DNA from: Herbiconiux daphne
GTDB lineage: Bacteria > Actinomycetota > Actinomycetes > Actinomycetales > Microbacteriaceae
Assembly (NCBI RefSeq): GCF_024979295.1
Contig: NZ_JANLCJ010000003.1
Coordinates: forward strand, 186,001 to 250,000
Direction: 5' to 3'
DNA: 64,000 nucleotides
Both the position numbers and the translations under genes were made by a program. The notes below the pieces were generated by a model that was not told the origin of the DNA, searched no databases, and saw only the letters and a program-made list of their open reading frames with translations. Positions 258 to 56,977 of this stretch are shown here, piece after piece (position 1 is the stretch's first letter; every line of letters starts with the position of its first letter).

Positions 258-282
258 CCGCGCCGCCGCCTCTGCGGCGCGG
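258..282 (+). terminator. Hairpin downstream of tRNA-Arg
   Basis: A perfect 9-bp stem CCGCGCCGC / GCGGCGCGG encloses the 7-nt loop CGCCTCT, starting 12 nt after the tRNA. There is no T-tract, as is usual in high-GC actinobacteria. The same 25-nt hairpin occurs inside repeat element A at 38206-38323, so it is either a terminator type shared by both or a remnant of that element. Confidence 0.6.
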
Positions 283-19699: not shown

Positions 19700-19750
19700 G
19701 CTCGTCCAGAATCAAGAGACCGGGAGCGAACGCAAGAGGCCGCTCCTGGA

Positions 19751-19831
19751 CGACCCAGGGTGAGCGCGCGGCCGCGAGAGCGACCGCACGGGAACATGTC
19801 GCCCGGCGCCGCAGGGGCGGCGGCGCCGGCT
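19751..19831 (+). repeat. Repeat element A, partial copy A1
   Basis: This copy starts CGACCCAGGGTGAGCGCG, identical or nearly so to the copies at 30008 and 38944, and keeps GGCCGCG, AGCGACCGC, ACATGTC, and GCCGCAGG-GGCGGCGGCGC. It diverges after about 19831, losing the third hairpin. It is preceded by an 8-bp inverted repeat (TCGTCCAG 19702-19709, CTGGACGA 19746-19753). It lies between metY and metX rather than between convergent genes. Confidence 0.65.
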
Positions 19832-19862
19832 GCTGGGCCGCCGCGCAGCAGCAGCCCAGCAG
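19830..19862 (+). promoter_or_regulatory. Hairpin abutting the metX ribosome site
   Basis: CTGCTGGGC (19830-19838) pairs perfectly with GCCCAGCAG (19854-19862). The right arm overlaps the first bases of the ribosome site AGGAAG (19861-19866) of metX, so folding could reduce translation. No known SAM riboswitch fold is visible around it. Confidence 0.4.
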
Positions 19863-19872
19863 GAAGATACAC

Positions 19873-27901: not shown

Positions 27902-28981
27902 GTGCCCGAATCCGCGCTCTTCAGCCCCCTGTCCATCCGCGAGGTCACCACTCGCAACCGCATCTGGGTGGCGCCGATGTGCCAGTACTCGGCCGACGAC
28001 GAAGACGGCATGCCGGGCGACTGGCACCTGATCCACCTGGGGTCGTTCGCCACCGGCGGCGCGGGGCTCATCTTCACCGAGGCCACCGCCGTGAGCCCCG
28101 AGGGCCGTATCTCGCCCCAGGATCTCGGCATCTGGAACGACGAGCAGCGCGACGCGTTCGCCCGCATCACCGCGTTCATCCGGTCGCAGGGCTCGGTGTC
28201 GGGCATCCAGCTCGCCCACGCCGGGCGCAAGGGCTCGACCTTCAAGCCGTGGAGCCCCGAGCGCGGCACCGTGCCAGCCGAGCAGGGCGGGTGGGAGCCC
28301 GTGGGCCCGTCGGCGATCGCGTTCGGCGACTACGCCGTGCCGCACGAGCTGTCGGCCGGCGAGATCGACGGGGTCGTCGACGACTTCGTGTCCGCCGCGC
28401 GGCGCTCGATCGAGGCCGGCTTCGAGGTGCTCGAAATCCACGCCGCCCACGGCTACCTGCTGCACCAGTTCCTCTCGCCGCTGTCGAACCTGCGCACCGA
28501 CGAGCACGGCGGGTCGCTCGAGAACCGGGCGCGGCTGCTGATCGACGTCGTGCGCGCCGTTCGGGCAGAGATCGGCGAGGCCGTTCCGCTGTTCGTGCGC
28601 TTCTCGGCCACCGACTGGGTCGACGACGGATGGAACGAGCAGCAGACCGCCACCGTAGCCGGCTGGGCACGGGATGCCGGAGCCGACGTGTTCGACATCT
28701 CGAGCGGTGGCAACGTGGTGGGCGCGCGCATCCCGGTCGGCCCGCTCTACCAGGTGCCCCTGGCCTCCTACGTGCGCGAGCACGCGCCCGCCCCCGTGTC
28801 GGCCGTCGGCCTCATCACCACCCCGCAAGAGGCGGAAGACGTCGTCTCCTCCGGTCGTGCCGACGCCGTGATGCTCGCCCGAGAGTTGCTGCGCGACCCC
28901 CACTTCCCCCTCCGTGCCGCCCGCGAGCTCGGGGTCGACCTCACCTACTGGCCGCCGCAGTACGTGCGGGCGAAGTTGTGA
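27902..28981 (+). CDS. Old yellow enzyme family NADH:flavin oxidoreductase
   Basis: This 359-aa FMN enzyme belongs to the YqjM/thermophilic-like OYE class, shown by C27 in APMCQYSA, the His pair in HAAHGYLLHQF and the short, loop-poor barrel. These enzymes reduce activated alkenes with NADPH, and their physiological role often relates to electrophile or oxidative stress. The GTG start has AAAGG seven bases upstream. Repeat element A2 begins two bases after its stop, at the edge of island I. Confidence 0.92.
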   Translation: MPESALFSPLSIREVTTRNRIWVAPMCQYSADDEDGMPGDWHLIHLGSFATGGAGLIFTEATAVSPEGRISPQDLGIWNDEQRDAFARITAFIRSQGSVSGIQLAHAGRKGSTFKPWSPERGTVPAEQGGWEPVGPSAIAFGDYAVPHELSAGEIDGVVDDFVSAARRSIEAGFEVLEIHAAHGYLLHQFLSPLSNLRTDEHGGSLENRARLLIDVVRAVRAEIGEAVPLFVRFSATDWVDDGWNEQQTATVAGWARDAGADVFDISSGGNVVGARIPVGPLYQVPLASYVREHAPAPVSAVGLITTPQEAEDVVSSGRADAVMLARELLRDPHFPLRAARELGVDLTYWPPQYVRAKL

Positions 28982-28983
28982 CC

Positions 28984-29103
28984 CTGCCGTCGCGGCCGTG
29001 CTTCGCGCGGCTGCGACGGGGCGCGCCGCCGCCCCTGCGGCGCGCCGCGACACCTGAGCGCGCGGTCGCTGGCGCGGCCACGCGCTCAGCCTGGGTCGTC
29101 GAC
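28984..29103 (-). repeat. Repeat element A, copy A2 (left edge of island I)
   Basis: This element of about 120 bp is the reverse complement of the copies at 30008 and 38941 and nearly identical along its whole length by eye. From the gene side it would form three hairpins: a GC-rich one around a CTTCG loop, a central one (GGCGCGCCGC / GCGGCGCGCC) and a third (TGAGCGCG / CGCGCTCA enclosing GGTCGC / GCGGCC). It begins two bases after the stop of the old yellow enzyme gene. Confidence 0.85.
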
Positions 29104-29296
29104 AGCGGCCCGTTGCGTGCGCTGCCGTGCCGCCCCTGCCCCAACCCCTGAGCGCCCCTCCCTCGACAAGTCACTTCTCGTTGCAATCACCCCCTTCAGC
29201 CACCCAAGAGTGACTCCTCGGCGCAGGCAGAGGCAGCGAACAGCAGCGGCCCCCGCCCGCGCTCGCCCCACTCGCGCTCACCCCACCCCTCTCGCA

Positions 29297-29318
29297 CCCC
29301 ACCCCGCCCACCCGGCCC
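29297..29318 (-). other. Potential G-quadruplex on the minus strand
   Basis: Runs of CCCC, CCCC, CCC, CCC and CCC separated by one or two bases on the plus strand give five G-tracts on the minus strand. It lies ten bases before the palindromic unit at 29328. Confidence 0.5.
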
Positions 29319-29442
29319 GGCCACCCGCGAGAAGTCACAATCCGGTGCGCATGCACCCTTCAAGCACCGAAAAGTGACTTCTCGGCGGTGGTGGGAGTAG
29401 CGAGCACGCGGATGCCGCCCCTCACCAGCCACCCCGCGCACA

Positions 29443-29460
29443 CCCCACCCACCCGCGCCC
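29443..29460 (-). other. Second potential G-quadruplex on the minus strand
   Basis: CCCC-A-CCC-A-CCC-GCG-CCC on the plus strand gives four G-tracts on the minus strand with loops of one to three bases, in the spacer between the units at 29328 and 29534. Confidence 0.45.
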
Positions 29461-29975
29461 GGCCTCACTCGCGCCCGGCCTCACCCGCGCTCTCCCCACC
29501 CGCTCGCGCCCAACTCGCTCCTGCGCCATCCCGCGAGAAGTCACAATCCGGTGCGCGTGCACCCCTCAAGCACCGAAAAGTGACTTCTCGGCGGAGGTGG
29601 GGTAGCAAGCACGCGGATGCCGCCCGCTCATCTGCCACGTCACCCAACGGCGCACACACCACCCATTCGCGGCGAGCCCCGCCACCTGCTCGCGCCCGAC
29701 CCCGCCCACTCTCGACTCAGCCTCCCTGCGCAGTTCCGCGAGAAGTCACAGCCCGGTGCAAATGGCGCGCGGCAGCGACGAAACACGACCTCGTGGCGGA
29801 GTACAGGGAGACGGTGGGATGGCATCGCCCGGCGAGAAGTCACTTTTCGGTGCAAATGGCGCCCGCCAGTGACAGGAAGTGACTTCTCGGCGCAGGCGGG
29901 GCCCGCGAGATTTCACAATCCGTGCCGAATGCGACCTCGGGCACCGAGAAGTGACTTCTCGGGAGAATGTGGGGG

Positions 29976-29995
29976 CAGCGGCGGCGAAGCCGCTG
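29976..29995. repeat. Small hairpin inside island I, next to element A3
   Basis: CAGCGGC (29976-29982) pairs with GCCGCTG (29989-29995), and the self-complementary GGGCGCGCCC follows directly. It separates the last palindromic unit from element A3. Confidence 0.6.
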
Positions 29996-30007
29996 GGCGC
30001 GCCCACA

Positions 30008-30124
30008 CGACCCAGGGTGAGCGCGTGGCCGCGCAGCGACCGCGCGCTCACATGTCCCGGAGCGCCGCAGAGGCGGCGGCGCGCCCCGCCGCAGCCGCGC
30101 GAAGCACGGCCGCGGCGGCAGCTA
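30008..30124 (+). repeat. Repeat element A, copy A3 (right edge of island I)
   Basis: This copy is in the orientation opposite to A2. It starts CGACCCAGGGTGAGCGCG, contains the inner pair GGCCGC / GCGACC, the CATGT core, and ends CGGCCGCGGCGGCAGCTA. It ends 11 bases before the stop codon of the converging CorC gene, so seen from that gene it has the same orientation as A2 seen from its gene. Confidence 0.85.
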
Positions 30125-30135
30125 ACACACCGCAG

Positions 30136-31170
30136 CTACCGCCGAGTCGCGTCCTGTACCTCGCCCACGAGCTCCTCGATGATGTCCTCGAGGAAGAGCA
30201 CGCCCGTGGTGAGGCCCGATTCGGTGAAGGCCCGCGCCAGGTGAGCGCCCGAGCGGCGCATCGACGCGAGGGCGTCTTCGAGGTCGGTCTTCTCGAAGAT
30301 CGACGGCAGCAGGCGGATGCGCTTGGGCGGGATGGGGTCGTCGAACTCGTCGTCGTCGAGGTCGATCACGTCTTTGAGGTGCACGTACCCGGCCGGAAGG
30401 CCCTCGTCGTCGACGATGACGTAGCGCGAGAAGCCGTACTTCGCCACCGCGCGCTCCACGTCGGCCGGCGTCGCCGTCTCGGGCAGGCTGATCAGCGACT
30501 CGAGCGGCACCGCGACCTCGGCCACCGTCTTCGAGGTGAACTCGAACGCCGCCGACAGGGTGCCGGTGCGATCGGAGAGCACGCCCTCCTTCTTCGACTG
30601 CGCCACGATCGTCGACACCTCGTCGAGCGTGAAGGCACTCGCCGCCTCGCTCTTCGGCTCCACCCGGAACAGCCGCAGCACACCGTTGGCCGTCGAGTTC
30701 AGCGCCACGATCACCGGCTTGAACAGCCGCGAGATGCCCACGAGCGGCGGCGCGAGCATGAGCACGGCGCGGTCGGGCATCGAGAACGACAGGTTCTTCG
30801 GCACCATCTCGCCGAGCACCACGTGCAGGAACGACACCAGCACGAGCGTGATGATGAACGCGATGGTGCCGATCGCCTCCTCGGGCAGCCCGGTCAGGTG
30901 CAGCGGCACCTCCAGCAGGTGGTGGATCGCCGGCTCCGAGACGTTCAGGATGAGCAGCGAGCACACCGTGATGCCGAGCTGGCTGGTCGCCAGCATGAGC
31001 GTGGCGTGCTCCATCGCCCAGAGCGCCGTCTTCGCGCTCGACTTGCCCTGCTCGGCGAGCGGCTCGATCTGCGACCGTCGCGCCGAGATGACGGCGAACT
31101 CGGCCGCCACGAAGAAGGCGTTGCCCGCGAGCAGTACCACGAGCCAGAAGATCCCCAGCCAATCAGCCAC
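30136..31170 (-). CDS. CNNM/CorC (HlyC) family protein, short form
   Basis: This 344-aa membrane protein has an N-terminal DUF21/CNNM domain of three to four hydrophobic segments (about 1-150; GEMVPKNLSFS is the conserved loop) and two CBS domains (about 200-335; SRYVIVDDEGLPAGYVHLKD, LFLEDIIEELVGEVQD). The C-terminal CorC_HlyC domain is missing. Family members are linked to Mg/Co efflux and to repair of membrane damage. GTG at 31170 overlaps the stop of the longer paralogue by eight bases; the frame opening at 31218 lies within that gene. Confidence 0.88.
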   Translation of the reverse strand: MADWLGIFWLVVLLAGNAFFVAAEFAVISARRSQIEPLAEQGKSSAKTALWAMEHATLMLATSQLGITVCSLLILNVSEPAIHHLLEVPLHLTGLPEEAIGTIAFIITLVLVSFLHVVLGEMVPKNLSFSMPDRAVLMLAPPLVGISRLFKPVIVALNSTANGVLRLFRVEPKSEAASAFTLDEVSTIVAQSKKEGVLSDRTGTLSAAFEFTSKTVAEVAVPLESLISLPETATPADVERAVAKYGFSRYVIVDDEGLPAGYVHLKDVIDLDDDEFDDPIPPKRIRLLPSIFEKTDLEDALASMRRSGAHLARAFTESGLTTGVLFLEDIIEELVGEVQDATRR

Positions 31171-32748: not shown

Positions 32749-34188
32749 TCACCAGCTGACCGGCAGCGCCTTGCCCTCCTCGTAGCCCGCGGCCGACTGG
32801 ATGCCGACGAGCGCCCGGTCGTGGAACTCGGCCAGCGTCGACGCGCCCGCATAGGTGAACGACGAGCGCACCCCGGCGGTGATCATGTCGAGCAGGTCTT
32901 CGATCGAGGGCCGCAGCGGGTCGAGGTAGATGCGGCTCGACGAGATGCCCTCCGCGAACAGCGTCTTGCGCGCGAGCTCATACGCGTCGAGCCGCCTGAA
33001 CCGCTCCTGCACCGCCTTCGTCGAGGCCATGCCCCAGCTCTCCTTGTAGAGCCGGCCGGCCGGGTCGACGTCGAGGGTTCCGGGCGCCTCGATGGTTCCG
33101 GCGAACCACGAGCCGATCATGACGGATGCCGCCCCCGCGGCCAGCGCCAGGGCGACGTCGCGCGGGTACCGCACCCCGCCGTCGGCCCACACGTGCGCCC
33201 CCAGCTCGCGCGCCGCCGCCGCGGTCTCGAGAACCGCCGAGAACTGCGGCCGGCCCACCGCCGTCATCATGCGGGTCGTGCACATCGCGCCCGGGCCGAC
33301 GCCCACCTTGAGGATGTCGGCACCGGCATCCACGAGGTCGGCGACGGCCCGCGCGGTCACGACGTTGCCCGCCGCGATCGGGATGCCGAGCTTCGCCTTC
33401 GCAAGCGCCCGCAGTGCGCGCAGCATGCCCTCCTGATGGCCGTGCGCGGTGTCCACGACGAGCACGTCGACCCCCGCGGCCACGAGCGCACGCGCCTTCG
33501 TGACCACGTCGCCGTTGATTCCCACGGCGGCGGCCACGCGCAGGCGCCCCGAACCGTCGAGCGCCGGGCGGTAGATGGTCGAGCGCAGCGCACTCGTGCG
33601 GCTGAGCGTGCCGACCACGGAACCGTGCCGCATGATCGGCGCGAAGTCGATGTCGGCGGCGACCATGGCGTCGAACGCGTCACGCGGGCCCGCGACGTCG
33701 TCGGCCGAGATGGAGGTCAGGGCTCCGTGCAGCAGATCGCCCAGCCGGGCATCCGGCAGCGCGGTCGCCAGGCGCGACGCCGCGATGCACCCCACGAACG
33801 TGCCGTCGGGCTCGTGCAGCACGAGCCCTTGGCCGGCCACGGCCGGCACCACGCGCAGCGCGTCCTCGACGGTGTCGGAGGGGCTGAACGAGAACGGGGT
33901 GTCGAAGGCCACCGGCTGCTGCTTGACCCAGCGGATCGCGGCATCCAGGTCTTGCAGCGGCATGTCCTGCGGAAGCACACCGAGCCCGCCGCGGCGCGCG
34001 AGCGAGGCCGCGAGCCGGGGGCCGGTGACCGAGTTCATGTTCGCCGAGACGATCGGAATGGTCGCGCCGGTGCCGTCGGTCGGATCGAGCGAGACATCCA
34101 GTCGTGACGTCACCGCGGAGCGGCTCGGAATGAGGAAGACGTCGGAATAGGTCAAGTCGTTCCGGCCGGGATCGCCATAGAATTCCAT
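32749..34188 (-). CDS. guaB1: GuaB1 family IMP dehydrogenase-related protein
   Basis: This 479-aa barrel protein has the catalytic loop GVGPGAMCTTRMMTAVG with the active-site Cys and a CBS-like insertion after residue 95. It is the actinobacterial GuaB1 branch, shown to work as a GMP reductase (GMP to IMP) in mycobacteria rather than as IMP dehydrogenase. The opening YSDVFLIPSRSAVTSR and the ending SFTYAGASTLAEFHDRA are diagnostic. TAGCGT is six bases upstream of the ATG. It is divergent from kgd. Confidence 0.93.
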   Translation of the reverse strand: MEFYGDPGRNDLTYSDVFLIPSRSAVTSRLDVSLDPTDGTGATIPIVSANMNSVTGPRLAASLARRGGLGVLPQDMPLQDLDAAIRWVKQQPVAFDTPFSFSPSDTVEDALRVVPAVAGQGLVLHEPDGTFVGCIAASRLATALPDARLGDLLHGALTSISADDVAGPRDAFDAMVAADIDFAPIMRHGSVVGTLSRTSALRSTIYRPALDGSGRLRVAAAVGINGDVVTKARALVAAGVDVLVVDTAHGHQEGMLRALRALAKAKLGIPIAAGNVVTARAVADLVDAGADILKVGVGPGAMCTTRMMTAVGRPQFSAVLETAAAARELGAHVWADGGVRYPRDVALALAAGAASVMIGSWFAGTIEAPGTLDVDPAGRLYKESWGMASTKAVQERFRRLDAYELARKTLFAEGISSSRIYLDPLRPSIEDLLDMITAGVRSSFTYAGASTLAEFHDRALVGIQSAAGYEEGKALPVSW

Positions 34189-34194
34189 GCTTCC

Positions 34195-34200
34195 ACGCTA
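34195..34200 (-). promoter_or_regulatory. Leaderless-type -10 box for guaB1
   Basis: TAGCGT on the minus strand is six bases upstream of the ATG at 34188. Confidence 0.5.
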
Positions 34201-34335
34201 ACCGGCCCCGGCTGGGCGGACTACCAGCGCGAAAGGCATAGGCTTGTTGCTGCACGTGTCCACGCGTGAACAAGCAGCGCAGCAGACACCGGCACGTGCG
34301 ACCTACGTGAGGCAACGGGAAGTGGGCGATCGGCT

Positions 34336-37300
34336 TTGGCTAGCCAATTGACAGGTACGAGCACCGACGACGGCGCGTCGGGCGAATTCGGAGCGAACGA
34401 GTGGCTCGTCGACGAGCTCTACGAGCAGTACGTCGCCGACAAGAACTCGGTCGACAAATCGTGGTGGCCGGTGCTCGAGAGCTACCGCTCGCACGTGTCC
34501 GGGGGCAGCACGGCTCCGGATGCCGCGGCCGCACCGGATGCCGCCGCCGCAACTCCCCCGGCACCCGCCGCCGCGGCACCCGCACCCGCGCCCGCCGCCC
34601 CCACCGCCGCACCGGCATCCGCCGCCCCGACGGGCATCGAGGCCGCCGAGTCCGACGGCCCCGCGGCCCCGGCGCCGGCCGCGCCCTCCCCCACCGCCGA
34701 CTCGCGCCCCGCGACCCAGCCGGTCGCGCGCACCACGAGCATCGAGGCGAAGCCGCAGCCCATCCCGGCCGAGGCGCCGAGCGCCCGGCCGAGCACCCCC
34801 GAAGAGGCCGCCAAGGAGGCGGCCGAAGACGCCGAGAAAGACACGGTCACCCCGCTCCGCGGCATGTCGAAGTCGCTCGCCACCAACATGGACGCGAGTC
34901 TCACCGTCCCCACGGCCACGAGCGTGCGGTCGATCCCGGCGAAGCTGCTGATCGACAACCGCATCGTCATCAACAACCACCTCCGTCGCGCCCGTGGCGG
35001 CAAGGTGTCGTTCACGCACCTCATCGGCTGGGCCCTCATCCAGGCGCTGAAGGAGTTCCCGAGCCAGAACGTCTTCTACGAAGAGGTCGACGGCAAGCCC
35101 TCCGTCGTGGCACCCGCGCACGTCGGCCTCGGCATCGCCATCGACATCCCGAAGCCCGACGGCTCGCGCGCGCTGCTGGTTCCCGGCATCAAGCGCGCCG
35201 ACACCATGGGCTTCAACGAGTTCCTCGCCGCCTACGAAGACCTCGTGCAGCGCGCCCGGCAGAACAAGCTCACCGCCGCCGACTTCCAGGGCACCACGAT
35301 CTCGCTGACCAACCCGGGCGGCATCGGCACCGTGCACTCCGTGCCGCGGCTGATGAAGGGCCAGGGCGCCATCATCGGCGCCGGGGCGCTCGAATACCCC
35401 GCCGAGTTCCAGGGCGCCTCGCCCAAGGTGCTCGCGAACCTCGGCATCGGCAAGGTCATCACGCTGACCTCCACCTACGACCACCGCGTCATCCAGGGCG
35501 CCGGCTCCGGCGAGTTCTTGAAGAAGGTGCACGAGCTGCTACTCGGCGAACGCCACTTCTACGAGAACATCTTCGCCGAGCTGCGCATCCCCTACGAGCC
35601 CATCCGCTGGGCCGCCGACATCAGCGTCGACGAGGCGAGCGCCATCGACAAGACCGCGCGCGTGCAGGAGCTCATCAACGCGTTCCGCGTGCGCGGCCAC
35701 CTGATGGCCGACATCGACCCACTGGAATACCGCCAGCGCACCCACCCCGACCTCGACATCGCGACCCACGGGCTGACGTTCTGGGATCTCGACCGCGAAT
35801 TCGTCACGGGCGAGTTCGGCCTCACCCGGCAGGCCTACCTGCGCGACATCCTGGGCGTGCTGCGCGACTCCTACTGCCGCAAGATCGGCATCGAGTACAT
35901 GCACATCCAAGATCCCGCGCAGCGCCGCTGGATCCAGGAGAAGGTCGAGCGGCCCTACGCCAAGCCCGGCCACGACGAGCAGATGCGCATCCTCGAGAAG
36001 CTCAACGAGGCCGAGGCCTTCGAGACGTTCCTTCAGACGAAGTACGTCGGCCAGAAGCGCTTCTCGCTCGAGGGCGGCGAGTCGACCATCGCGCTGCTCG
36101 ACGCGATCATCCAGGGAGCGGCCGAAGAAGATCTCGACGAGGTCGCCATCGGAATGGCCCACCGCGGCCGGCTGAACGTGCTCACCAACATCGCGGGCAA
36201 GACCTACGGCCAGATCTTCCGCGAGTTCGAGGGCACCCAAGACCCGCGCACCGTGCAGGGCTCGGGCGACGTGAAATACCACCTCGGCACCGAGGGCACC
36301 TTCACAGCCAGCGACGGCAAAGAGATCCCGGTCTACCTCGCGGCGAACCCTTCGCACCTCGAGGCCGCCGACGGCGTGCTCGAGGGCATCGCCCGCGCGA
36401 AGCAGGATCGCAAGCCGATCGGCACCTTCTCGACCCTGCCCATCCTCATCCACGGCGACGCCGCCCTCGCGGGCCAGGGCGTCGTGGTCGAGACCCTGCA
36501 GATGTCGCAGCTGCGCGGCTACCGCACCGGTGGCACCATCCACGTGAACATCAACAACCAGGTCGGCTTCACCACGCCGCCCACCGAGTCGCGGTCGTCG
36601 GTGTACTCAACGGATGTCGCCAAGACCATCCAGGCCCCCATCTTCCATGTCAACGGCGACGACCCCGAGTCGGTCGTGCGTGTGGCCCAGCTGGCCTTCG
36701 AATACCGCCAGCAGTTCCACCGCGACGTGTTCATCGACCTCATCTGCTACCGCCGCCGCGGTCACAACGAGGGCGATGACCCGTCGATGACCCAGCCGCT
36801 GATGTACAACCTCATCGAGGCCAAGCGGTCGGTGCGCAAGCTCTACACCGAGTCGCTGGTCGGCCGTGGTGACATCACCGAGGCCGAGTACGAGGCCGCC
36901 CACGCCGACTTCCAGGACCGCCTCGAGCGGGCCTTCGCCGAGACGCACGCGGCGCAGACCGCGTCGATCCCGGTGGTCACGGGCGACGTCAACGCCGTGG
37001 CCGACCTCGAGCGCCCCGAGGCGCAGCGTGACGACAGCGCGAAGTCGCCGTTCGAGACCAAGGTCTCCGAGTCGACCATCCAGCTCATCGGCGACGCGTT
37101 CAACAACCCGCCCGCGGGTTTCTCGGTGCATCCGAAGCTGCAGCAGCTGCTCACGAAGCGCGTCGAGATGACCCGCAACGGCGGCATCGACTGGGCGTTC
37201 GGCGAGTTGCTCGCCCTGGGCTCCCTGCTCGTCGAGGGCACCCCGGTGCGCCTGGCGGGTCAGGATGCGCGCCGCGGCACGTTCGTGCAACGGCACGCGG

Positions 37301-38205
37301 TGCTGCACGACCGTGAGAACGGCCAGGAGTGGCTGCCGCTGGCGAACCTCGCCGACAACCAGGCCCGCTTCTGGATCTACGACTCCCTGCTCAGCGAATA
37401 CGCCGCCATGGGCTTCGAATACGGCTACTCCGTCGAGCGGCCCGACGCCCTCGTGCTCTGGGAGGCGCAGTTCGGCGACTTCGCCAACGGCGCGCAGACC
37501 ATCATCGACGAGTTCATCTCGTCGGCCGAGCAGAAGTGGGGCCAGCGCTCGTCGCTCGTGCTGCTGCTGCCGCACGGCTACGAAGGTCAAGGCCCCGACC
37601 ACTCGTCGGCCCGCATCGAGCGCTACCTGCAGATGTGCGCCGAAGACAACATGATCGTGGCTCGGCCCTCGACCCCGGCGTCGTACTTCCACCTGCTGCG
37701 CCGGCAGGCCTACGCCCGCCCGCGCAAGCCGTTGATCGTGTTCACGCCGAAGGCGATGCTGCGACTGCGCGGCGCGACCAGTTCGGTGGAATCGCTCACC
37801 GAGGGTCGCTTCGAACCGGTCATCGACGACGCACGCATCACCGACAAGGCCGCGGTGCGCCGCGTGCTGCTGCACTCCGGCAAGATCCACTACGACCTCG
37901 CCAGCGAACTGCAGAAGAACCCGGATGACGGTGTGGCGCTCGTTCGCCTGGAGCAGTTCTACCCGCTGCCCGTCGAAGAGCTCAACGTGGTCGTCGCGGA
38001 ATACCCGAACGCCGAGCTCGTGTGGGTGCAAGACGAACCGCAGAACCAGGGCGCCTGGCCGTTCATCTACGCCGAACTCCCCCAGCGCCTCGAGGGCCGC
38101 CCCCTGCGAGTCGTCTCCCGCCCCGCCTCCGCCTCCCCCGCCGCCGGCTCTGCCAAACGCCACGCGGTGGAGCAGACGGAGCTGATCGCGAGGGCGCTGA
38201 GCTAG
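34336..38205 (+). CDS. kgd: Multifunctional 2-oxoglutarate decarboxylase/dehydrogenase
   Basis: This 1289-aa enzyme is the actinobacterial SucA variant that carries its own acyltransferase domain. The order is a short E1 N-terminal helix (NEWLVDELYEQYVADKNSVD), an Ala/Pro linker (about 55-165), an E2-like succinyltransferase domain (about 175-415, HRVIQGAGSGEF) without a lipoyl domain, then the thiamine-diphosphate E1 part to the end (GMAHRGRLNVL, FGDFANGAQTIIDEF). It decarboxylates 2-oxoglutarate in the TCA cycle, working with separate E2 and E3, and in relatives is inhibited by GarA. I follow the TTG start at 34336, which has only GGGAAG well upstream. Repeat A4 follows its stop directly. 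Confidence 0.95.
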   Translation: MASQLTGTSTDDGASGEFGANEWLVDELYEQYVADKNSVDKSWWPVLESYRSHVSGGSTAPDAAAAPDAAAATPPAPAAAAPAPAPAAPTAAPASAAPTGIEAAESDGPAAPAPAAPSPTADSRPATQPVARTTSIEAKPQPIPAEAPSARPSTPEEAAKEAAEDAEKDTVTPLRGMSKSLATNMDASLTVPTATSVRSIPAKLLIDNRIVINNHLRRARGGKVSFTHLIGWALIQALKEFPSQNVFYEEVDGKPSVVAPAHVGLGIAIDIPKPDGSRALLVPGIKRADTMGFNEFLAAYEDLVQRARQNKLTAADFQGTTISLTNPGGIGTVHSVPRLMKGQGAIIGAGALEYPAEFQGASPKVLANLGIGKVITLTSTYDHRVIQGAGSGEFLKKVHELLLGERHFYENIFAELRIPYEPIRWAADISVDEASAIDKTARVQELINAFRVRGHLMADIDPLEYRQRTHPDLDIATHGLTFWDLDREFVTGEFGLTRQAYLRDILGVLRDSYCRKIGIEYMHIQDPAQRRWIQEKVERPYAKPGHDEQMRILEKLNEAEAFETFLQTKYVGQKRFSLEGGESTIALLDAIIQGAAEEDLDEVAIGMAHRGRLNVLTNIAGKTYGQIFREFEGTQDPRTVQGSGDVKYHLGTEGTFTASDGKEIPVYLAANPSHLEAADGVLEGIARAKQDRKPIGTFSTLPILIHGDAALAGQGVVVETLQMSQLRGYRTGGTIHVNINNQVGFTTPPTESRSSVYSTDVAKTIQAPIFHVNGDDPESVVRVAQLAFEYRQQFHRDVFIDLICYRRRGHNEGDDPSMTQPLMYNLIEAKRSVRKLYTESLVGRGDITEAEYEAAHADFQDRLERAFAETHAAQTASIPVVTGDVNAVADLERPEAQRDDSAKSPFETKVSESTIQLIGDAFNNPPAGFSVHPKLQQLLTKRVEMTRNGGIDWAFGELLALGSLLVEGTPVRLAGQDARRGTFVQRHAVLHDRENGQEWLPLANLADNQARFWIYDSLLSEYAAMGFEYGYSVERPDALVLWEAQFGDFANGAQTIIDEFISSAEQKWGQRSSLVLLLPHGYEGQGPDHSSARIERYLQMCAEDNMIVARPSTPASYFHLLRRQAYARPRKPLIVFTPKAMLRLRGATSSVESLTEGRFEPVIDDARITDKAAVRRVLLHSGKIHYDLASELQKNPDDGVALVRLEQFYPLPVEELNVVVAEYPNAELVWVQDEPQNQGAWPFIYAELPQRLEGRPLRVVSRPASASPAAGSAKRHAVEQTELIARALS

Positions 38206-38323
38206 CTGCTTCGGGCGCCGTGCTTCGCGCGGCGTCCGAAGCCCGCGCCGCCGCCTCTGCGGCGCGGGGCGACACCTGAGCGCGCGGTCGCTGCGCGGCC
38301 ACGCGCTCAGCCTGGGTCGTCGA
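38206..38323 (-). repeat. Repeat element A, copy A4 (left edge of island II)
   Basis: This copy has the same orientation relative to its gene as A2. It begins at the base after the kgd stop codon. The outer hairpin differs from A2 (the arms read CTTCGGGCGCC and GGCGTCCGAAG, which still pair). The central hairpin is the 25-nt form also found after tRNA-Arg, and the third hairpin (TGAGCGCG / CGCGCTCA) is unchanged. Sequence change with preserved pairing in the outer stem argues for selection on structure. Confidence 0.85.
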
Positions 38324-38360
38324 GTACGGCCCGCGCCTCCGCCCCCGCACCCACCTCCCC

Positions 38361-38412
38361 GCAAGACACCCCACCCCTCGCGCGAGACACGCCGCCCTCC
38401 TCCGCAAGACAC
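38361..38412 (+). repeat. Degenerate direct repeat of about 21 bp in island II
   Basis: GCAAGACAC, GCGAGACAC and GCAAGACAC at 38361, 38382 and 38404 each head a C-rich unit of 21-22 bp (for example GCCCTCC). It lies between A4 and the palindrome array. Confidence 0.55.
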
Positions 38413-38431
38413 GCAGCCCTCCCCTCCCCCG

Positions 38432-38861
38432 CGAGTGGTCACTATCCGTGCCAAAACCCCGCGCTTACCCCCAAAAGTGACCACTCGACGGACGAGGGCG
38501 TGCGCCAACTTGACGGACGAGAGCGCGCGCCCCACCCTTACGCGGGCGTCCGAACCGTGCCGCCCCGCGACACAGCCGCGAGTGGGCACAATCCGCGCCA
38601 AACCCGCGCGCTAACAACGGAAAGTGACCACTCGACGCACGGGATCGCCGGATGGGAAGAACGCAATCGTCCGGCCACCGCAGGCACTGCCCGAGTGGGC
38701 ACTATTCGCGCCAAGATCGCCCTTTTACCGTCGAAAGTGACCACTCGCGGAGCGGGACGTGGGATCGGAGGCACGAGGAGGTCCGAGATCGCCGCGATAC
38801 GGACCCGAGTGGGCGGAAAGTGCGCCAAGGGCGCGTGTTTGCCGCCGAAAGCGACCACTCG
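38432..38861. repeat. Array of 56-bp palindromic units, family II
   Basis: Four units lie at 38432-38487, 38579-38634, 38692-38747 and 38806-38861, each exactly 56 bp. The arms are CGAGTGGTCAC (or CGAGTGGGCAC) and GTGACCACTCG. The fourth unit has GCGACCACTCG on the right and a changed left arm. The segment after the left arm (for example ACTATCCGTGCC) matches family I units (CACAATCCGGTGC), so both arrays belong to one superfamily. Start-to-start distances are 147, 113 and 114 bp. Confidence 0.85.
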
Positions 38862-38940
38862 GCGGAAGAGGTCGAGGAACGGGGGGGGGCGCGCGATGTC
38901 GCGGGGATGACGGGGACGGCACCGCAGGTGTTTGGGCCTT

Positions 38941-39063
38941 GTCGACGACCCAGGGTGAGCGCGTGGCCGCGCAGCGACCGCGTGCTCACATGTGCCGGCG
39001 CGCCGCAGAGGCGGCGGCGCGCCCCGCCGCAGCCGCGCGAAGCACGGCCGCGGCGGCAGCTAG
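38941..39063 (+). repeat. Repeat element A, copy A5 (right edge of island II)
   Basis: This is the best-preserved copy, nearly identical to A3 and to the reverse complement of A2. It starts GTCGACGACCCAGGGTGAGC and ends GGCGGCAGCTAG against the stop codon of rsrA on the minus strand. Confidence 0.87.
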
Positions 39064-39303
39064 CTAGTGACTCTGCAGGCTGCGGATGCGCACCAGGAGC
39101 TGGTCGCGCAGTTCTTCGGGGGCGGTCTCTTTGCAGGCGCGCTGCACGGTCTGGGTCAGCACGATGCCGATGTGCAGTTCACTTTGGCACCCCTCGCAGG
39201 TTTCGAGGTGAGCACGGATGTCGGCGGCATCCGTTCGGCAGATCTCGTTGCGCAGATACTCCTCGAGCTCGGCTCGGGCTTTGTCGCAGCCGCAGTCAGT
39301 CAT
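39064..39303 (-). CDS. rsrA: Mycothiol-system anti-sigma factor
   Basis: This 79-aa zinc anti-sigma factor has the signature H-x3-C-x2-C (AHLETCEGC) and further cysteines in TDCGCD, NEICRTD and RACKET. In this family, disulfide stress oxidises the cysteines, zinc is released and the sigma factor is set free. The gene starts within the sigma gene stop as ATGA, so the two are translationally coupled, as in Streptomyces and Mycobacterium. Element A5 abuts its stop. Confidence 0.93.
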
Positions 39304-40013
39304 TTCTTGCTCCCTTTGACGCTGGCGGTGGCCAGGCCGCGTTCGCGTGCGTAATCGGTGAGAAGCCCTCGCAGAAGCCGTCGGCCTCGATGCAGGCGAC
39401 TCATGACCGTGCCTACGGGGGTCTTCATGATGTCGGCTATCTCCTGGTAGGAGAAGCCTTCGACGTCGGCCAGGTAGACGGCCAGACGGAAGTCTTCGGG
39501 AATCGACTGCAACGCTTCTTTGACGTCGCTGTCGGGCAGGTGATCGATGGCCTCGGCCTCGGCCGACCGGCTCGAGAGCGTGGCGGTCGCCGACTCGGCG
39601 GTGCCGAGCTGCCAGTCCTCCATGTCGCTGGTGGAGTTGAGGTAGGGGTCACGCTGCTTCTTGCGATAGGTGTTGATGAACGTGTTCGTGAGAATGCGGT
39701 ACAGCCACGCCTTGAGGTTCGTGCCCTGCTCGAACTGGCCGAACGCGGCGTAGGCCTTGACGAAGGTCTCCTGAACGAGGTCTTGGGCGTCGGCGGGGTT
39801 GCGGGTCATGCGCAACGCCGCGCCGTAGAGCTGGTCGAGGAACGGGATCGCCTGCTCTTCGAACAGGGCGCGCGGATCTGCGGGAGCCGGTTCGACGGGG
39901 GCTTGCTCTGCGGGAGTGGGAGTGCTCATCACGCCCCAGTCTACGACCGGCGCGCTGAGGTCGATCGTGGGAGCGAGGGCGATGCGCTCGGCTACTGCCG
40001 TGGTGCTCGTCAC
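39300..40013 (-). CDS. sigR: ECF sigma factor SigR/SigH (thiol stress)
   Basis: This group 4 sigma factor for the thiol-oxidative stress regulon has 237 aa in its long form. Region 2 is [21 protein letters not shown] with [20 protein letters not shown], and region 4 is [20 protein letters not shown] with [12 protein letters not shown]. Two starts are credible. GTG at 40013 has the strong ribosome site GAGAGGAGAG. ATG at 39929 has TAGACT eight bases upstream, giving a leaderless 209-aa form. Streptomyces makes two such SigR forms with different stability. I could not find a clear SigR-dependent promoter upstream. rsrA follows, overlapping. Confidence 0.93.
39938..39943 (-). promoter_or_regulatory. 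Leaderless-type -10 box for a short sigR form
   Basis: TAGACT on the minus strand is eight bases upstream of the internal ATG at 39929 and inside the coding region of the long form. Confidence 0.4.
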
Positions 40014-40109
40014 GCGCTCTCCTCTCGTCTGCTCGGATCGTCTGCCCGGGTCGTCTACTCGGTCGCATCCCGATGATGATCTTCCAGGGGCCGGATGCCT
40101 GCACCCGAC

Positions 40110-40115
40110 TATTCT
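40110..40115 (+). promoter_or_regulatory. Leaderless-type -10 box for aroA
   Basis: TATTCT is eight bases upstream of the ATG at 40124, with no ribosome site between. Confidence 0.5.
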
Positions 40116-40123
40116 GATAACCG

Positions 40124-41482
40124 ATGCCTGTTTCGAGATATTCCAAGCCGGAGTTCAATCCCTACGGTGACGACGCGCCGATCACGGTCGACGAGCACTG
40201 GGTCGCGCCGCGCGCGACCGCGCCGCTGGACGCCACGCTCTCGCTGCCGGGCTCGAAGTCGCTCACCAACCGCGAACTCGTGCTCTCGGCGCTCGCGAGC
40301 GGTCCGTCGGTGCTGCGTGCTCCCCTGCACTCGCGCGACACCGATCTCATGATCGAGGCCCTCCGCTCGCTCGGCACCACCGTCTCCCCCGTCGAGGGCA
40401 CCGGAGAATACGGTGCCGATCTCGAGATCACGCCGGCCGAGGAGCTGATCGGCAGCACCACGATCGACTGCGGACTCGCAGGCACGGTGATGCGCTTCCT
40501 TCCCCCGGTGGCCGCGCTGGCCCTCGGTCCCACCACCTTCGACGGCGACGAGGGCGCCCGGCGGCGGCCGATGGCGACGACGATCACCTCGTTGCGCGCG
40601 CTGGGTGTCGACATCGGCGACGACGGCCGCGCCGCCCTGCCGTTCACCGTGCACGGCTTCGGCCGGGTAGCCGGCGGCTCCCTCACCATCGACGCCTCGG
40701 CGTCGAGCCAGTTCGTCAGCGGCCTGCTGCTCTCGGCCGCCCGCTTCGACGACGGCCTCGAGTTGCGCCACTCGGGCGCGCGACTGCCGAGCCAGCCCCA
40801 CATCGACATGACCATCGCGGCCCTCCGCGCCCGCGGCGTCGATGCCGAGTCGGGCGACGACGGCAGCTGGTCGGTGCGGGCGGGCGCGATCGCGGGGGCG
40901 GAGGTCGCGATCGAGCCCGACCTCTCGAACGCGGCGCCGTTCCTCGCGGCCGCCGTCGTCACCGGCGGACGGGTGACGATCACCGGCTGGCCGGAGTCGA
41001 CGACCCAGGTGGGAGCCGATCTCGCCGACATCCTGCCCCTGTTCGGTGCGACCGTGGAACGCGACGGAGACCGGCTCACCGTGACCGGCGGCGACACCGT
41101 TCGCGGCATCAGCATCGACCTCAGCACCGGCGGTGAGCTCGCGCCGGCGATCGTGGCCATCGCGGCTCTCGCCGCCGAGCCGAGCGAGATCACCGGCATC
41201 GGGCACATCCGTCATCACGAGACCGACCGGCTGGCGGCCCTGGCCACCGAGATCAACAATCTCGGCGGAGCCGTCGTCGAGTTGCCCGACGGGCTCGCGA
41301 TCACCCCCCAGCCGTTGCACGGCGGACTCTGGTCGAGCTACGCCGATCACCGCATGGCCACGGCCGGCGCCATCATCGGCCTCGTCACGGACGGCGTGCT
41401 GATCGAGGACATCGCCACCACCGCCAAGACCCTCCCCCAGTTTCCGGAGCTGTGGCGCGGCATGCTCGCGGGGGGCCTATGA
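40124..41482 (+). CDS. aroA: 3-phosphoshikimate 1-carboxyvinyltransferase (EPSP synthase)
   Basis: This 452-aa enzyme of the shikimate pathway transfers the enolpyruvyl group of PEP to shikimate-3-phosphate. [18 protein letters not shown] holds the phosphate-binding Lys/Ser. [18 protein letters not shown] is the region that affects glyphosate binding, and [14 protein letters not shown] and [15 protein letters not shown] close the active site. It heads the aroA-rsgA-hisN unit and overlaps rsgA as ATGA. It is divergent from sigR, a conserved actinobacterial arrangement. Confidence 0.97.
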
Positions 41483-56897: not shown

Positions 56898-56977
56898 CCC
56901 CGCCCCGCCGAGTTGCGCCAAAGTGCCCTATAACCCGCAGGGTTAGGGCACTTTGGCGCAACTCGGCGGGGGCGGGG
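56898..56977. terminator. Long palindrome between convergent dedA and CDF genes
   Basis: The left arm (56903-56936) and right arm (56940-56971) pair along 32 bp with a 2-nt bulge and the loop GCA. A further five G-C pairs extend the stem outward after a 1-nt bulge. The core reads CGAGTTGCGCCAAAGTGCCC. It fills the whole 83-bp gap between the two stop codons, so it can terminate both genes. There is no T-tract. Its outer CGAG matches the palindromes of the two islands, but the rest differs. Confidence 0.85.

Follow-up and report, generated by a model that had tools for sequence, protein, structure and literature searches.

What are the inverted and palindromic repeats that fill the space between two convergent genes of Herbiconiux daphne, and what might they do there? 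The window analysed here is a 64-kb stretch (64,000 nucleotides) of this genome (hereafter G000; 5.3 Mb in 889 contigs, 98.6% complete). It holds two islands of such repeats, which we compared with the rest of G000 and with same-genus genomes (G001-G015).

Two hairpin families in the islands

Island II takes up the entire intergenic space shared by the 3′ ends of two convergent genes. The left one (34348..38205, plus strand) encodes a kgd-like multifunctional 2-oxoglutarate dehydrogenase (Pfam E1_dh, 2-oxoacid_dh, Transket_pyr and OxoGdeHyase_C), and the right one (39064..39303, minus strand) a small anti-sigma-like protein (Pfam zf-HC2), behind which lies a sigma factor gene (39300-40013; Pfam Sigma70_r2 and Sigma70_r4_2); gene calls come from a home-made codon-usage caller. 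Each of the two convergent genes is followed by a copy of an element that we call A. The copy A4 (38202..38341, plus strand; R1 score of 129.8 bits) is sense to kgd and starts at its stop codon TAG (38203-38205). Its predicted fold has three hairpins (38208-38242, 38243-38267 and 38276-38310) and an energy of -90.9 kcal/mol (z -5.1 against shuffles). The copy A5 (38923..39063, minus strand; 132.4 bits; fold z -3.1 against shuffles) is sense to the zf-HC2 gene and starts beside its stop codon. Their inverted arms, 38200-38323 in A4 and 38942-39065 in A5, are 124 nt long and 84% complementary, and they face inward, 618 nt apart.

Between these arms lie four 56-bp palindromes of a second element, P, all of the type that we call TG. 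Thus, the inverted A pair around four palindromes, which a sequence-only reading of this DNA had described, is real. The arm sequences that it had assigned to all four are exact in the first palindrome (38432..38487; arms CGAGTGGTCAC/GTGACCACTCG; fold z -6.6), and the three others have changed bases: one arm base in the second (38579..38634) and the third (38692..38747), both with the left arm CGAGTGGGCAC, and more in the fourth (38806..38861), whose arms are decayed (CGAGTGGGCGG...GCGACCACTCG). Island I is placed in the same way, its flanking genes being of the Oxidored_FMN and CNNM/CBS kinds (Pfam, gene calls), and it too was found as first described, with arms of the AA type. One A element (28980..29121, plus strand) lies at the 3′ end of the gene at 27902-28981, and another (29985..30125, minus strand) at that of the gene at 30136-31170. 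The palindromes in between (29164..29961, with starts at 29164, 29328, 29534, 29833 and 29906) are four of 57 bp and one of 56 bp; a sixth, decayed one at 29735 was found in a separate search.

The P pattern is not a product of chance, as its forward matches far exceed those of the reversed-pattern control. Over the whole of G000, with up to three mismatches allowed, the 56-bp arm pattern had 37 matches in the forward direction and the control had 4; with at most one mismatch, the counts were 28 and 0. By R2, which was trained on 33 palindromes with those of G000 among them, P amounts to at least 100 copies at no fewer than 53 sites, a list for which 150 of 1982 candidates were scored and into which some sites were taken because they bear A. 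Every copy had to be assigned to the type with the nearer arm, which placed 29 copies in the TG class, all of 56 bp, and 71 in the AA class (64 of 57 bp, 6 of 56 and 1 of 54); AA stands on both arms in 55 of these 71, the rest being variants such as AC/AA and one CC/CC. P is near-symmetric and reads as a hairpin from either strand. Among 50 placed sites, 31 lie between convergent genes, 15 between co-directional genes, 1 between divergent genes and 3 inside called genes; three more are at contig edges. As a separate observation, the window also contains a 57-nt palindrome between convergent genes at 56909-56965, with CGAG/CTCG ends like those of P and another interior (TTGCGCCAAAGTGCCC).

The sequence-only reading had proposed that A forms a standard casing within which one founder palindrome was amplified locally, a model that we now consider highly improbable. 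One of its expectations holds well: palindrome type is uniform per site, since 21 of the 22 sites with several P copies carry a single arm type (mean of 9.1 after shuffling; none of 5000 shuffles reached 21), and L065 is the sole site where both types are mixed. The A-pairs also speak in its favour. All five pairs found in G000 enclose P copies, and 13 of the 16 pairs in G001 enclose a similar interior of 128-140 bp, as judged by eye, with a different palindrome (GAAACGACGGAG/CTCCGTCGTTTC; for instance at L174, L196 and L217). However, only 5 of the 53 P sites have A on both sides, 7 have it on one side and 41 lack it on either side, and a simple A casing was rejected on this ground. Arrays without A at their ends, an outcome that the sequence-only reading had itself named as arguing against its model, refute the casing half and make up 12 of the 22 multi-P sites, two of the 12 (L242 and L248) being near contig ends. 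Most A copies are single (18/28 unpaired in G000 and 59/91 in G001). Moreover, over the 16 genomes the counts of A (0-91) and of the P pattern (0-43) are uncorrelated (Spearman 0.02): G001 has 91 A and no match to the P pattern, and G003 has 7 P and no A.

The idea that each array arose from one local founder fared differently in the two palindrome classes. In the 64 AA copies of 57 bp, a set that leaves out the 7 AA copies of other length, the interiors are more alike within sites than between them (0.74 vs 0.53; 0 of 2000 permutations as high). This is not so for the TG interiors (0.67 vs 0.65; 537 of 2000 permutations as high), and the four copies of island II, with a mutual likeness of 0.65, resemble each other no more than TG copies from separate sites do (0.65). 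Local amplification or conversion would thus fit the AA-type arrays and not island II, for which a local founder is unsupported. One further AA array, L063 (1884-2830; contig C445 of G000), has seven palindromes, with a mean likeness of 0.90 among those of 57 bp, and no A at either end.

Altogether, A and P are two unrelated, independent hairpin families. The exchange of filling between A pairs is real, and the simplest account of an inward-facing pair is that each of the two convergent genes bears its own A. The two A of one G001 pair often differ in R1 score.

Structure and placement of A

We showed that A is an element of about 140 nt with three consecutive hairpins, as established from 26 G000 copies, in which 19 of the 42 predicted pairs show two-sided changes. 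In G001, where an alignment fitted to the model took 62 of the 91 copies, the predicted partners pair in 93.8% of cells, compared with 80.3% for shuffled and 36-50% for slid partners, and the covariation score is 0.282 vs 0.083. The model does not hold at every position: the pair of columns 96-152 does not form in 60 of these 62 copies, and two pairs of stem I fail in 21 of 54 G001 copies. On the sense strand of A, G.U outnumbers A.C by 137 to 2 in G000 and by 370 to 10 in G001, an excess mostly supplied by near-constant G.U columns and the tail helix; without these, the counts are 29 to 2 and 60 to 10, respectively. Such a predominance of G.U on the sense strand speaks for an RNA of the mRNA strand.

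No covariance model of Rfam 15 matched positions 38150-39120 up to E = 1, and at gathering scores the same collection recognised only tRNA and tmRNA in the 64-kb window. Both A and P are devoid of a U-tract. Indeed, a scan of 34000-41000 for U-tract terminators gave three, all outside island II, for 2.5 expected. Hairpin II of A (23 nt) also occurs as a lone exact copy at 259..281 (plus strand), 10 nt 3′ of a tRNA-Arg(CCG) gene and placed as a tRNA terminator would be; the chance expectation in the window is 0.02 matches with up to three mismatches. At another locus, L078 (2430-2500; G000 C112:477734-477804), the stop codon and A are separated by short tandem copies of the 5′ leader of A, similar to GTGCTAGCTGCCGCCGCGG.

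The position of A follows the ends of genes. In G000, where three fragments under 70 bp were left out of the count, 24 of 28 copies are sense to the preceding gene, 22 of them within 40 bp of its end; in G001, this is the case for 74 of 91 copies, 58 of them within 60 bp. Copies that are both sense and between convergent genes number 20/28 in G000 and 61/91 in G001, to be compared with 12 convergent junctions among the 58 of the window. The copies that are not sense to a called neighbour (4/28 in G000 and 17/91 in G001) may partly reflect gene-calling errors. One exception to the sense rule is found in the window itself, a lone A at 19727-19869 that lies on the minus strand although the genes on both sides of it are on the plus strand.

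Turnover at the kgd and glmM junctions

Among the 16 genomes, the junction downstream of kgd carries A in three, arranged as A-4P-A in G000, A-X-A in G001 and A-A in G014. A P-like hairpin only is present in G006 and G010. Eight genomes (G002, G003, G005, G007, G009, G011, G012 and G015) have a gap of 57-86 bp that folds into a hairpin specific to this locus (z -2.9 to -13.0, relative to single-base shuffles), an extra open frame is called beside kgd in G004 and G013, and the contig ends at this place in G008. On the kgd tree, in which 4 of 13 inner branches are starred, the presence of A requires at least three changes, gains or losses. We did not retain a single origin of A at kgd, as the tree needs three changes, possibly losses.

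A second junction, between genes that we take to be glmM and coaA (recognised from their protein ends, without a family search), was compared in 15 genomes. It carries P in G000, where a weak A match (20.8 bits) inside the glmM gene was ignored. Two genomes (G004 and G014) have A on the side of glmM, two others (G001 and G007) on that of coaA, and a relic of an A tail was recognised by eye in G006. In 8 of the 15 genomes, the junction measures 61 bp or less, or the genes overlap, and there is no A or P match, so that the elements are dispensable there; the short gaps of G003 and G013 fold a short hairpin. G001 and G004, which are sisters on the kgd tree (99/98), bear closely similar A copies on opposite sides of the glmM junction; this could stem from an in-place inversion, from separate gains, or from a pair of which each genome lost a different member. 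The comparisons at kgd and glmM thus show that A and P are gained and lost, that is, turn over, at both junctions. In G009, the 174-bp gap after glmM (L227) contains inverted repeats of another kind (TTGCCACA/TGTGGCAA), which may be one more species-specific family.

The same genes bear A in G000 and G001 more often than chance predicts. Of the 24 sense copies in G000, nine (located at 7 junctions) are on genes whose likely G001 orthologue also bears A, where about 0.5-1.5 would be expected, an expectation that assumes about 3900 genes or 1200 convergent ends (both estimates). Likely orthologues were single blastp matches with at least 70% identity, one gene with matches of 31-35% having been dropped, and in one of the nine shared pairs the A match is weak (41 bits). 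The copies themselves are no more alike than random G000-G001 pairs (mean likeness of 0.649 vs 0.67); random pairings were as high in 1330 of 2000 trials, and reshuffling restricted to the nine partners gave as high a value in 1584 of 2000. On this basis, we rejected the idea that individual A copies are inherited vertically. The kgd pair taken alone ranks 1 of 91 in likeness. At all nine shared places, the likeness of each member to some other copy in the same genome (0.64-0.99) exceeds its likeness to the counterpart (0.54-0.79), meaning that A copies interconvert within a genome or that the same ends are refilled. Mean likeness among A copies is 0.79 within G000, 0.68 within G001 and 0.67 between the two genomes; the G001 value barely exceeds that between genomes because G001 has several A subtypes.

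Candidate roles and comparison with known repeats

From the structure, strand and position of their copies, we consider it probable, though well short of certain, that A and P are dispersed, turning-over hairpins with a terminator or insulator role at 3′ ends. The locus-specific hairpins that take their place at kgd in eight genomes, and the lone hairpin II of A after tRNA-Arg, also count in favour of this role. Once transcribed from the upstream gene, A would fold into a hairpin cluster that ends the mRNA or stabilises its 3′ end. As A lies in sense at the stop codon of each of the two convergent genes, the pair faces inward. The P hairpins could serve as back-up bidirectional stops on both strands, so that A and P together would keep convergent transcripts from running into each other's genes. 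Copies would be renewed from other copies of the same genome, by some copying mechanism, and with time A and P come and go at a given junction. A more specific reading, which we put forward only tentatively, is that A copies are genus-specific movable terminators: three-hairpin 3′ ends that would insert in sense at stop codons through some enzyme or copying process, be re-supplied in each lineage to the same genes and replace ordinary terminators. If this were true, the 3′ ends of a bacterium would evolve jointly as one repeat family.

Some observations count against a terminator role. The eight glmM junctions without A or P and the missing U-tracts speak against an essential terminator, and the three P sites within called genes and the one between divergent genes are also unfavourable, as are the A copies that are not sense to a called neighbour and the model pairs that fail to form in G001. 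In addition, the placement of A and P would equally be expected of selfish elements that are tolerated only at 3′ ends. This is the main rival to the terminator or insulator role, and both can hold together: A and P would be miniature elements of REP or MITE type with no host role, persisting at convergent 3′ ends because insertion harms least there. We regard it as possible, and clearly less likely than a terminator or insulator role. It would account for copy numbers that vary widely among congeners, for the patchy presence at kgd (3/16, with its three or more changes), for the closely similar A copies on opposite sides of the glmM junction in the sisters G001 and G004, and for A copies on nine shared genes that are no more alike than random ones (0.65 vs 0.67). 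However, the excess of G.U over A.C on the sense strand and the compensatory changes indicate selection on an RNA, hairpin II of A is used alone after a tRNA gene, and the sharing of A-bearing genes between G000 and G001 (9/24) exceeds the 0.5-1.5 or so expected; nor was a Y1/RAYT transposase found in the G000 genome.

It is unlikely, in our judgement, that A and P act as DNA-level sites, which would bind a nucleoid or segregation protein or serve as cruciform supercoil buffers. The spread of the frame of P over several genera would suit such sites: when searched as CGAGNNGTCAC, 34 bases and GTGACNNCTCG, this 56-bp frame is found with other inner stems in 22 of 299 genomes of the family (1/299 with the reversed pattern as a control), belonging to 12 of 85 genera. 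Of the 22 matching genomes, 16 are outside the genus, and five of these hold 3-7 copies each; several single matches may be due to chance. Nevertheless, the G.U pairing of A is strand-specific, which is unexpected for a double-strand site, and the positions of A and P follow the 3′ ends of genes.

The usual view of repeats at the ends of bacterial genes is that they are junk or scattered REPs. The A family has three hairpins, its RNA covariation is strand-specific, and it occupies dozens of stop codons in each genome across many species of a single genus. If A terminates transcription, a dispersed repeat family can supply and renew the 3′ ends of genes, and the 16 congeners, with their filled, half-filled and empty junctions, make such a renewal directly testable.

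Among the closest known systems is the hairpin-cluster terminator, which A resembles in form and place. According to a report on these terminators, clusters of hairpins near the stop codon coincide with transcript ends derived from RNA-seq, do not need a U-tract and abound more in genomes that are GC-rich (PMC8355165). Like A, they consist of several adjacent hairpins directly 3′ of the stop codon; they lie mostly within 50 nt of it, and A lies within 40 bp of the gene end in 22/28 G000 copies and within 60 bp in 58/91 G001 copies. By this analogy, A would fit a hairpin-cluster terminator and P a bidirectional version of it. The two differ in that hairpin-cluster terminators are an independent set of hairpins for each gene, whereas A is a repeat family with conserved sequence and loops and up to 91 copies.

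P was also compared with the REP family. REPs are described, in two reports, as dispersed intergenic palindromes that are often clustered and lie mainly between convergent or co-directional genes, with several types per genome and some types that are species-specific (PMC3733652, PMC2817692). P shares this location downstream of coding regions (31 convergent and 15 co-directional among the 50 placed sites), and arrays of its near-symmetric units exist at 22 multi-P sites. The REPs of BIMEs are regularly spaced and alternate in orientation. However, REPs measure 20-40 bp and carry an unpaired GTAG or CGTC tag, whereas P measures 56-57 bp and has paired CGAG/CTCG ends; it also differs in being accompanied by the unrelated three-hairpin element A. 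The RAYT transposase domain (Y1_Tnp, PF01797) had no match in the 98.6% complete G000, and the same search was positive in 5 of 14 control genomes. Membership of P in the REP/RAYT system was rejected, given the absence of PF01797 matches in G000 and the different size and tag. GTAG REPs flank a RAYT gene in their genome, and CGTC REPs have no dedicated transposase.

In the accessible portions of the open-licence literature on REP and palindromic repeats of Microbacteriaceae, actinobacteria or Herbiconiux, or on MIRU at stop codons, we found no description of A or P. Mycobacterial MIRU repeats and MITEs are small structured repeats at gene borders, some of them at stop codons, as is A. MITEs are marked by a target-site duplication and a related autonomous transposon. 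A differs in that only one genus of the family sample bears it. Within the genus, it was detected by R1, among the best 150 candidates per genome, in 15 of the 16 genomes, with 1 to 91 copies. Under stricter filters, it was present in 6 of the 7 Herbiconiux genomes of the Microbacteriaceae sample and in 0 of the 292 others. A strict A pattern run over a collection of genome contigs matched five of them, three from Herbiconiux and two from one Microbacteriaceae bacterium.
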